From Clostridia bacterium (lineage in GTDB: Bacteria; Bacillota; Dehalobacteriia; Dehalobacteriales; Dehalobacteriaceae), in the NCBI GenBank assembly GCA_012838175.1, contig DUPU01000039.1, positions 1-33,772 of the forward strand: a DNA stretch of 33,772 nucleotides. The letters are read 5' to 3'. This document shows, piece after piece, positions 7,208 through 19,663 of this stretch; the first letter of the stretch is position 1, and every line of letters starts with the position of its first letter. The translations under genes and the position numbers were made by a program. The notes below the pieces were generated by a model. That model saw only the letters and a list, made by a program, of their open reading frames with translations. It was not told where the DNA came from and searched no databases.

Positions 7208-8638
7208 CTATAGATCGTAGTAGAGAGCGAACTCCGCCGGATGGGGAATCTGATTAAACCATTTGACTTCTTCCCGTTTCTTTTCCAGCCAGATTTCTAT
7301 TAATCGTTGGGAAAAAACATTTCCCTTCAATAGAAATTCGTAATCCTTTTCCAAAGCGTTCAGAGCTTCTTCCAGGGATCTTGGCAGGGATTTTATTTTT
7401 GCCTGCTCTGCTTTGGGTAAATTATACAAATTGGTATCATAAGGACCAAATCCGAGGGCTTCCGGGTCCATTCCCTTTTCCACCCCGTCTAATCCTGCCA
7501 TTAAAATGGCTGAAAAGGCATAATATGGGTTGCAGGTTGCATCAGGGCAGCGGATTTCAAAACGTTTTTGATCCGGAGTTCGGGCATAATCCGGAATGCG
7601 AATGACAGCACTGCGATTGGCGGTAGCATAACAAATGCTTACCGGAGCTTCATAACCCGGTATCAATCGTTTATAGGAGTTTGTGCTGGGATTGGTAAAA
7701 GCTAAAAGAGCAGGGGCATGGGTCAATAACCCTCCGATAAAGCTAAGGGCGATCTTGCTCAATCCGGAATAACCGTTGGCATCATAAAACACCGGTTTTC
7801 CCCCTTTAAACAGGTGAATATGAACGTGCATGCCGCTTCCGGCCTCACCAAACAGGGGCTTTGGCATAAAAGTAACGGTTTTGCCATTATTAAAGGCATG
7901 GTTTTTAACGATATACTTAATAAGCATGGTTTTATCGGATAATTCCCGCAAAGGGCCGGATTCCACTTCAATTTCCGATTGTCCGGGGCCTCCTACCTCC
8001 GGATGATGGTATTTAATGGCTACCCCTCGTTCTTCCAACAGAAGGCACATTTCACTTCTCAAATCGTAAAGTACATCCATGGGAGGGGCGATATGATAGC
8101 CTCCTTTTAAAGGAACTTTATAACCCCGGTTTTGTTCATTATTAATAGGCGTATTCCATTCAGCTTGTTCCGCATCGATAACAAATCCGGTGGAATGGGG
8201 TTTAGTTTCATAACTGATATGATCAAAGACATAAAATTCAAATTCCGGGCCGATCCGCATTTCATCCGCAATGCCCGAGGATTTTAAATATTCTTCTGCA
8301 TTTGTAGCTACGTTCCGCGGATACTGTTCAAACCGACGGTGCGGGTTACCGATAATATATACATCCCCAATCATAGATAAGGTGGGGGTTTTGACAAAAG
8401 GATCTAAAAAAGCAGTGGAGATATCAGGGATAAATACCATGTCGCTTTTTTCTACCGGGGCGAAGCCGTAGTTGGAGCCGTCAAAGCCAATTCCCTGAGT
8501 CAGAGTTTGATCAGAAAATCGTTCAACGGGAATGCTTAAATGACGCCATCGGCCCCAAATATCGATCATTTTGAAATCAATGATTTGAATATGATTGCTG
8601 GTACAATAGTTTTTGACTTCATCAAGTGTTTTAAACAT
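7208..8638 (-). CDS. glnA: Glutamine synthetase type I, GSI-beta-like
   Basis: 476 aa; FDGSNYGFAPVEKSDMVFIPD, KGGYHIAPPMDVLYDLRSEMC, GSGMHVHIHLF, NPSTNSYKRLIPGYEAPVSICYATANRSAVIRIPDYA, DTNLYNLP, C-term HPAEFALYYDL as in enterobacterial GS. Confidence 0.9.
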   Translation of the reverse strand: MFKTLDEVKNYCTSNHIQIIDFKMIDIWGRWRHLSIPVERFSDQTLTQGIGFDGSNYGFAPVEKSDMVFIPDISTAFLDPFVKTPTLSMIGDVYIIGNPHRRFEQYPRNVATNAEEYLKSSGIADEMRIGPEFEFYVFDHISYETKPHSTGFVIDAEQAEWNTPINNEQNRGYKVPLKGGYHIAPPMDVLYDLRSEMCLLLEERGVAIKYHHPEVGGPGQSEIEVESGPLRELSDKTMLIKYIVKNHAFNNGKTVTFMPKPLFGEAGSGMHVHIHLFKGGKPVFYDANGYSGLSKIALSFIGGLLTHAPALLAFTNPSTNSYKRLIPGYEAPVSICYATANRSAVIRIPDYARTPDQKRFEIRCPDATCNPYYAFSAILMAGLDGVEKGMDPEALGFGPYDTNLYNLPKAEQAKIKSLPRSLEEALNALEKDYEFLLKGNVFSQRLIEIWLEKKREEVKWFNQIPHPAEFALYYDL

Positions 8639-8678
8639 TGTAATCCCCTCTCTTGTTGAAAAAAGTTAACCTTAATAT

Positions 8679-8705
8679 ATTCTGCAAAATTAAATAATAT
8701 CCTCT
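8679..8705 (-). promoter_or_regulatory. Putative sigma-H promoter of the minus-strand glnA
   Basis: Minus strand AGAGGATAT (8705-8697) -N11- GCAGAAT (8685-8679); exact match to RNAGGAWWW-N11-RNNGAAT, 40 nt before the start codon. Confidence 0.65.
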
Positions 8706-8745
8706 AAAATTTTTCCTGCACTGCCAGAATTATATACATAATGTT

Positions 8746-8773
8746 TTGAATTTCGACAAATTTCTGGTATAAT
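8746..8773 (+). promoter_or_regulatory. Putative sigma-A promoter of the plus-strand glnA
   Basis: TTGAAT (8746-8751) -N16- TATAAT (8768-8773) with extended -10 TGG. Confidence 0.7.
8752..8759 (-). promoter_or_regulatory. Putative Spo0A box
   Basis: Plus TTCGACAA = minus TTGTCGAA, perfect 0A-box consensus, inside the -35/-10 spacer of the plus glnA promoter. Confidence 0.6.
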
Positions 8774-15739: not shown

Positions 15740-15868
15740 CTTACCATATTGCTATATTAACTAAAAATCTTTAGATAATAATAAATTTATGCAGGTTTTT
15801 CCTTTTGTTTGTAGAAAATGAATAATAAATAATATTGTGGAGAAAATATTCGGGATAATGGAGAGAAG

Positions 15869-16757: not shown

Positions 16758-16784
16758 GAAGGAATTTTATGGTAAACATAGAAT
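16758..16784 (+). promoter_or_regulatory. Putative sigma-H promoter of spoVG
   Basis: GAAGGAATT (16758-16766) -N11- ATAGAAT (16778-16784); exact consensus match; spoVG is a classic sigma-H gene in B. subtilis. Confidence 0.8.
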
Positions 16785-16833
16785 AGTTAAATATCCGATT
16801 AGTTTGTGCATAAGAGAAAGGATGGTGAGAGAT

Positions 16834-17216: not shown

Positions 17217-18602
17217 ATGTTTTTGATTTTCGGATGTGCAATAATATTGGCAGCAGGTAAAGGGACCAGGATGAAATCACGCCTTCCCAAGGTTTTACAT
17301 AAATTGGGGGGTAAATATATGATTGAGTATGTAATAAACGGGGTGAGAGAACTTGGCGTGGAAAAACTTATTGCCGTAATCGGCCATGAGGCGGAAATGG
17401 TCCGGCAGGCTTTAGGGGAAGATGTTTTATATGCTGTTCAAAAAGAACAATTAGGTACCGGACATGCTGTTTTAACAGCTATGCCCCATATTAGGGAAGA
17501 GGAGGGTCAGGTGCTGGTAGTGTGCGGAGACACCCCCCTGATCAAGCCGGAGACATTTAAGAAATTATGGGATTTCCATCGGGAAAATAAGGCCGCTTGC
17601 ACCGTTCTTTCCGCTTTTCTGCCCGACCCTGCCGGCTATGGACGAATTGTTAGGGAAGAGGGAAGGGTAGTTAAAATCGTGGAGCAAAAAGATGCCTCAC
17701 CTGAAGAACTATCCATTCACGAAATTAATACGGGGACCTATTGCTTTGATTTAAAGAGTCTTAGAAAGGCCCTTACCCTATTGACACCCAATAATGCCCA
17801 GGGAGAGTATTATTTGACTGATGTATTGTCGATTCTTGTTTCTCAAGGTTTAAAGGTAAAGGCGGTGACGGCGGAAGATTATCAGGAGACTATGGGAATA
17901 AACAGCAGGTCCCAGCTGGCGGAAGCGGAAAAAGTATTAAGGGAAAGAAAGATTTATCAACTCATGGATGAAGGAATAACTATTATTGATCCCGCGTCAA
18001 CCTATATTGAGCAGGATGTCACTATCGGCCGGGATACCGTGATAGAACCTTTTACCTTTCTTCGAGGCAAAACCATCATCGGATCTGAATGTATCATCGG
18101 TCCTGAGGCTGACATTAAGGATTCTATAGTGGGAAACGGGGTGAATGTAAATAGGACGGTAATGATTGAGGCTTCGGTAGGGGATAATTGCCGTATCGGT
18201 CCTTTTGCCTATTTGCGTCCGGGTACAAAATTAAGCCATAACGTTAAGATTGGTGATTTTGTGGAGATAAAAAAATCAAATATTGGAGAACATAGCAAAG
18301 TACCTCATTTAACATATGTGGGTGACGCGGAAGTCGGTAAGAATGTCAATATCGGGTGTGGCACAATTACCTGTAATTATGACGGGAAGCATAAATACCG
18401 CACCATCATTAAGGACCGGGCTTTTATCGGCAGTAATACCAATTTGGTTGCCCCGGTAGAGGTGGGAGAAGGTGCCATGATCGGTGCCGGATCCACTGTT
18501 ACCAAGGACGTACCTCCCGATGGTTTGGCCGTAGCCCGGGAAAAGCAGGTTAATATTCCTGGATGGGCGGCCAGAAAGCGCAAACAGCAAGAAGAAAAAT
18601 AA
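17217..18602 (+). CDS. glmU: Bifunctional UDP-GlcNAc pyrophosphorylase / glucosamine-1-phosphate N-acetyltransferase
   Basis: CAIILAAGKGTRMKSRLPKVLHKLGGK, left-handed beta-helix hexapeptide C-terminus with IGCGTITCNYDGKHKYRT. Confidence 0.96.
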   Translation: MFLIFGCAIILAAGKGTRMKSRLPKVLHKLGGKYMIEYVINGVRELGVEKLIAVIGHEAEMVRQALGEDVLYAVQKEQLGTGHAVLTAMPHIREEEGQVLVVCGDTPLIKPETFKKLWDFHRENKAACTVLSAFLPDPAGYGRIVREEGRVVKIVEQKDASPEELSIHEINTGTYCFDLKSLRKALTLLTPNNAQGEYYLTDVLSILVSQGLKVKAVTAEDYQETMGINSRSQLAEAEKVLRERKIYQLMDEGITIIDPASTYIEQDVTIGRDTVIEPFTFLRGKTIIGSECIIGPEADIKDSIVGNGVNVNRTVMIEASVGDNCRIGPFAYLRPGTKLSHNVKIGDFVEIKKSNIGEHSKVPHLTYVGDAEVGKNVNIGCGTITCNYDGKHKYRTIIKDRAFIGSNTNLVAPVEVGEGAMIGAGSTVTKDVPPDGLAVAREKQVNIPGWAARKRKQQEEK

Positions 18603-18626: not shown

Positions 18627-18634
18627 TTGTCGAA
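18627..18634 (+). promoter_or_regulatory. Putative Spo0A box upstream of prs
   Basis: TTGTCGAA, perfect 0A-box; 15-nt context AAATTTGTCGAAATT is the reverse complement of the glnA-site context. Confidence 0.6.
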
Positions 18635-18639
18635 ATTAA

Positions 18640-18666
18640 ACAGGATATCATTAATGAAGGTAGAAT
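18640..18666 (+). promoter_or_regulatory. Putative sigma-H promoter of prs
   Basis: ACAGGATAT (18640-18648) -N11- GTAGAAT (18660-18666); exact consensus match. Confidence 0.65.
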
Positions 18667-18718
18667 AAAAACAGGGTATGAGTTATTGCTACTACTATTG
18701 GGAGGTAGTTAATTTATT

Positions 18719-19663
18719 ATGAGCAACAAAAAACTAAAACTTTTTTCCGCCAATGCCAATCCGAAGTTAGCTCAGGAAATAGCAGAGTATTTAGGATTAA
18801 GTGTTGGGGCGGCGAAGGTAATTCGTTTTAGCGACGGGGAAATTACCATGGAGATTGATGAAAGTGTGCGGGGCGCCGATGTTTTTATTATTCAGCCCAC
18901 TTGTGCACCGGTAAATGAGCATTTAATGGAATTGCTGATTATGATAGATGCTATTCGGAGAGCCTCTGCGCGGAGAATTACAGCAGTTATACCTTACTAC
19001 GGATATGCCCGGCAGGAAAGAAAGAGCAGGGCCAGGGATCCTATTTCTGCAAAATTGGTGGCAAATCTGCTTACTGCCGCGGGCGCGCGCCGGGTTTTAG
19101 CCATGGACCTTCATGCCAGTGCTATTCAAGGCTTTTTTGATATCCCGGTAGATCATTTGCCTGGAGTGCCCATTTTAGCGGATTATTACAAGAAAAAGAA
19201 TATGGAAAATGTGGTCGTAGTTTCTCCTGACCTAGGGGGAGTGACCCGGGCTCGGGACCTGGCTAACCGCCTGGAAACGGGTATCGCTATTATCGACAAG
19301 AGGCGCCCTCAACCCAATGTGGCGGAGGTAATGAATATCATCGGTGATATTGAAGGGAAAACAGTAATTATGGCCGATGATATCATTGATACTGCCGGGA
19401 CGATTACTTTAGGGGCGAAGGCTTTGATGGAGAGAGGAGCCAAAGAGGTTCATGCCTGTTGCACTCATGCCGTTCTTTCCGGTCCGGCAATTGAGCGTTT
19501 GGAACAGTCGGTAATTAAGGAAGTATTAATTACTAATACTATTCCTTACGATCCTAAGGAAAAAGTTTGTACTAAGATAAAAGTTCTGTCTGTGGCTCCT
19601 CTTTTGGGTGAGGCCATTATGCGTATCCATGAAGATCTGTCCGTCAGCAGATTATTTGACTAA
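18719..19663 (+). CDS. prs: Ribose-phosphate pyrophosphokinase
   Basis: [75 protein letters not shown]. Confidence 0.97.

Follow-up and report, generated by a model that had tools for sequence, protein, structure and literature searches.

Organization of the glmU-prs region

The window analysed here is the whole 33,772-nucleotide stretch of a genome of the Dehalobacteriaceae (Clostridia bacterium, contig DUPU01000039.1). It contains a gene cluster, named from curated models, with the gene order spoVG-glmU-prs that is also found in the B. subtilis gcaD(glmU)-prs operon. Positions 18627-18666 read TTGTCGAA ATTAA ACAGGATAT CATTAATGAAG GTAGAAT, a predicted Spo0A box followed by the -35 element, spacer and -10 element of a sigma-H promoter (Table 1). 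The entire composite lies 3' of the glmU stop codon (18602) within the glmU-prs gap, 50-90 nt 5' of the start of prs, and 52 nt separate the end of the -10 element from the ATG at 18719. Re-reading of the window letters showed that the initial annotation had placed the box, the 5-nt gap, the -35 element, the 11-nt spacer and GTAGAAT correctly to the base. Its description of the sigma-H promoter as exact is to be read relative to a degenerate consensus (AGGAWWW at -35 and RNNGAAT at -10, 10-11 nt apart). Perfect TGTCGAA cores occur only twice in the window. Neither a second 0A box 10 bp from the prs box nor a terminator between glmU and prs was found in the window sequence.

Table 1. Predicted regulatory elements and genes in and around the glmU-prs gap.
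Feature	Position	Strand	Basis and remarks
purR sigma-H-like promoter	15791..15818	+	matrix; present also in G002 and G003
spoVG sigma-H promoter	16758..16785	+	top matrix match in window; kept in all four genera
glmU, gene 5' of prs	17217..18602	+	curated model
Spo0A box TTGTCGAA, predicted	18627..18634	+	core TGTCGAA 18628-18634; about -45 to -39 from inferred start; core as in PMC3485338
Gap ATTAA, box to -35	18635-18639	+	5 nt
Sigma-H -35 element ACAGGATAT	18640..18648	+	motif, matrix, alignment
Spacer CATTAATGAAG between sigma-H -35 and -10		+	11 nt
Sigma-H -10 element GTAGAAT	18660..18666	+	motif, matrix, alignment; 11-nt spacer
Transcription start (A), inferred from -10 position	18673, +/-2 nt	+	
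prs ribosome-binding site, approximate (GGGAGGT)	18699..18706	+	sequence; kept in four-genus alignment
prs, ribose-phosphate diphosphokinase (PRPP synthetase)	18719..19663	+	curated models NF002320, TIGR01251

Both strands of the window were scored with a weight matrix built from 30 C. difficile promoters that transcriptome data from a mutant and start sites had placed under SigH (PMC7438776, Table 3). The highest score was obtained at spoVG (20.75), followed by a minus-strand glnA gene (19.53), prs (19.5) and purR (17.85), which ranks the prs site third in the window. By this matrix, the three relatives examined within the family all have the spoVG promoter, and two have that of purR. The spoVG promoter, located 1.9 kb upstream of that of prs in the same gene cluster, would be read by the same sigma factor; unlike prs, it has no abutting 0A box in the window.

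Conservation of the composite in Dehalobacteriaceae

The family comparison comprised four genera with one genome each (G000, G001, G002 and G003), these being all that are available. The same arrangement is present at prs in all three of the other sampled genera. When the 40-nt composite was searched allowing up to 3 mismatches, a single match was found in the 2.4-Mb genome. A genome-wide scan with the looser pattern TGTCGAA-N3-9-AGGA-N14-17-GAAT placed a match at prs in every genome. It was the only match in G000, G001 and G002; G003 has a second one, inside an ORF. The reversed control pattern yielded 0 matches in the four genomes. In the four-genus alignment, 15 of 15 positions in the box, AGGA and GAAT were invariant, compared to 12 of the 67 positions in the rest of the glmU-prs gap up to the Shine-Dalgarno site (p 1.7e-9 by Fisher test, to be taken as a guide because alignment columns are not fully independent). 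The flanks of the composite were 36-55% identical. The single match in the genome and the invariance of the core within a diverged gap indicate that the element is under selection. Judged by these sequence comparisons, the predicted prs composite is not due to chance.

Distribution of the predicted sigma-H promoter and Spo0A box at prs

To score sites upstream of prs in other genomes, we used a matrix cut-off of at least 14, with expected numbers taken from Markov-simulated sequence. Among 34 class relatives, 25 have such a site at prs (1.07 expected), as do 9 of 32 other members of the phylum (0.67 expected). A few of these sites, e.g. that of G022, may have arisen by chance within glmU, and several of the genomes are congeneric. 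A negative control, the region upstream of sigH, gave 0 of 20 at this cut-off. The predicted sigma-H promoter at prs thus reaches well beyond Dehalobacteriaceae.

The predicted Spo0A box at prs is specific to Dehalobacteriaceae. Comparison of the region upstream of prs, which the initial annotation had proposed for related Clostridia, shows the composite in four of four genera of the family. In the phylum scan described below, it is absent from 15 of 15 genomes of the class, and other class members lack the box at prs though most have Spo0A and SigH, indicating that Spo0A control of the gene is not general. The sampled Bacillus genomes, Paenibacillus and other distant relatives likewise have no composite 5' of prs, a further indication that the trait is not general, and we know of no sigma-H promoter of prs itself in the B. 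subtilis gcaD-prs operon. In one phylum member (G076), TTGTCGAA is located 4 nt 5' of an AGGG-type site at prs.

All four family genomes contain Spo0A_C, i.e. a Spo0A with an intact DNA-binding domain. Its recognition helix is SRVERAIRHAIELAWDRGN, identical to that of B. subtilis Spo0A except at two positions. The gene for the spore sigma factor SigH is present in G000, G001 and G002; a search of the G003 assembly did not find it, perhaps due to a gap. Spores have been reported for Dehalobacterium formicoaceticum (PMC5597755). In C. difficile, purified Spo0A bound fragments containing perfect TGTCGAA boxes, which are predictive for binding, while a spoVG fragment was unbound (PMC3485338).

A common spacing across the phylum

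We searched 399 genomes of the phylum for the composite alone. The matches cluster at a distance of 6-7 nt from box to AGGA combined with 17 nt from AGGA to GAAT, where 32 of the 86 non-family matches fall, some of the 86 coming from close relatives so that the independent cases are fewer. Spacers that do not suit sigma-H (14 or 15 nt) served as an internal control and stayed at 0-2 matches per cell. The corresponding distances at the four family prs sites are (7,17), (6,17), (7,17) and (7,17). Among the loci read, the commonest target of the composite is dnaG, with a DnaG gene located 3' of it in 13 loci (L177-L179, L187, L200, L241-L244, L249, L250, L257 and L258); a SpoIIAA-like gene follows it in one locus (L259), both calls being made by N-terminal sequence without a family search. 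The spacing rule (box, 6-7 nt, AGGA, 17 nt, GAAT) is usable to find such promoters.

The composites before dnaG suggest that control of the primase-sigma-A operon by Spo0A is widespread. The dnaG-rpoD operon of Listeria is sigma-H-dependent (PMC4754846), and no report of Spo0A action at a dnaG-rpoD operon was found in the literature searched. The prs promoter shares its composite with these 13 loci and differs from them in the gene that it precedes.

The likeness to Spo0A-activated sigma-H promoters such as B. subtilis spoIIA, on which the initial annotation had based its proposal, is supported by the data: the spacing peak is common to prs and to the composites before dnaG and the SpoIIAA-like gene, and the genomes of the family contain spo0A (four of four) and sigH (three). 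As at spoIIA and the spo0A promoter Ps of B. subtilis, the 0A box is positioned 5' of the sigma-H -35 element, and the L259 composite has nearly the same spacing. Unlike these promoters, that of prs precedes a core metabolic gene and has one perfect box rather than several weak ones. The sigma-H promoter of spoIIA in the family itself (L169-L172, upstream of spoIIAA) is without TGTCGAA, so that within the family prs fits the Spo0A-activated class better. A TGACA-type element is conserved at this spoIIA promoter, about 25 nt 5' of the -35. Upstream of spo0A itself, a conserved TGTCGAA is found at about 45-70 nt in all four genera (L112-L115).

A model for regulation of prs and its alternatives

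These features are quite probably explained by an internal sigma-H promoter in the glmU-prs gap, activated by Spo0A~P from the box near -42 and operating on top of read-through. If transcription starts at about 18673, the center of the box falls near -42, adjoining the -35 element, and a position adjoining the -35 element is usual for an activator that contacts sigma region 4. Spo0A~P on this single abutting box would most likely touch region 4 of sigma-H and so behave as a class II activator. RNA polymerase with sigma-H would read the internal promoter, which would be turned on at the end of growth as sigma-H and Spo0A~P rise. Because no terminator was found between glmU and prs, basal read-through into prs from spoVG/glmU is expected, and the output of the sigma-H promoter would be an added, growth-phase-controlled source, able to raise the supply of PRPP as replication of the last chromosome copies is completed at the onset of sporulation. 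The prs promoter is thus probably activated by Spo0A~P, and the supply of nucleotides is probably tied to the switch into sporulation. We infer Spo0A binding, its sign (activation or repression), the start site and the physiological purpose from the DNA.

A different sign of regulation would have sigma-H drive prs while Spo0A~P, bound to the abutting box, lowers or just modulates transcription, for example by limiting PRPP synthesis after commitment. There is precedent at B. subtilis spo0A, where the sigma-H promoter can be stimulated or inhibited from single 0A boxes depending on position, and where Spo0A can repress Ps with 0A2 (PMC12090719). We nevertheless regard repression as unlikely at prs, where the box is just 5' of the -35 and covers no promoter element, and where the same spacing is seen before dnaG and the SpoIIAA-like gene.

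It is less likely still that the sigma-H promoter is real and that TGTCGAA serves a role other than Spo0A binding, for instance as a CGAA site of the PurR type or as an upstream promoter element. PurR boxes contain CGAA, purR is close by, and nearly all of the class members without the box do have Spo0A. However, the full 7-base 0A core is matched in four of four genera and the same composite recurs before dnaG across the phylum. A PurR box was rejected based on the four-genus alignment, which contains no paired conserved CGAA/TTCG.

Transcription of prs by sigma-A or read-through only, with a fortuitous motif, is very improbable. A weak sigma-A-like sequence overlaps the site (TAAACA-N18-TAGAAT, 9/12), and the absence of a terminator after glmU would favor read-through, but conservation is confined to the box and the sigma-H elements and sigma-H-like promoters recur at prs in other families. 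A promoter for sigma-A alone was rejected, being a weak match that leaves the conservation unexplained.

We give the least credence to TGTCGAA as the -10 element of a second, upstream sigma-H promoter in tandem: GTCGAAT is a natural sigma-H -10, for example at C. difficile spo0A and lplA (PMC7438776), but none of the four genomes has an AGG -35 located 10-12 nt upstream, and matrix scores are 3.5-7.1 compared to 12.9-19.5 for the annotated site. On the sequence evidence, both the tandem and the plain sigma-A readings fit worse than a Spo0A-activated sigma-H promoter. In C. difficile, the perfect 0A boxes of spo0A, lplA and ssuA (PMC3485338) appear to fall on SigH -10 elements (PMC7438776); counts of TGTCGAA can therefore confuse the two signals, and a check for this overlap is needed generally.

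Implications for PRPP synthesis

The open literature searched contained no report of prs being controlled by sigma-H or Spo0A. The prediction made here adds prs to the targets of a known class of promoter rather than proposing a new mechanism, and is well supported by comparison. PRPP feeds the synthesis of purines, pyrimidines, NAD, histidine and tryptophan, and is the signal read by PurR. Because falling GTP triggers sporulation in Bacillus, control of PRPP synthetase by Spo0A and sigma-H would, if true, link nucleotide supply to the sporulation decision via feedback. On a broader view, to which we give an even chance, sigma-H control of prs would be an old trait of many anaerobic Bacillota to which one family added a Spo0A switch; together with the sigma-H promoters of purR and spoVG in the cluster, it would tie the PurR signal molecule PRPP to the sporulation decision, alongside a dnaG-sigA operon under the same promoter type.

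Other predicted sigma-H sites in the window

The region 8678-8758 (minus strand) precedes glnA (7208-8638), which encodes a type I glutamine synthetase, and contains a near-perfect sigma-H promoter. A 0A box lies 48 nt further 5' and has 15 bases (AAATTTGTCGAAATT) in common with the prs box; G003 keeps the glnA sigma-H promoter and not the box. The sigma-H-like promoter upstream of purR has the form GCAGGTTTTTCC...TGTAGAAAA and is also present in two other genera.
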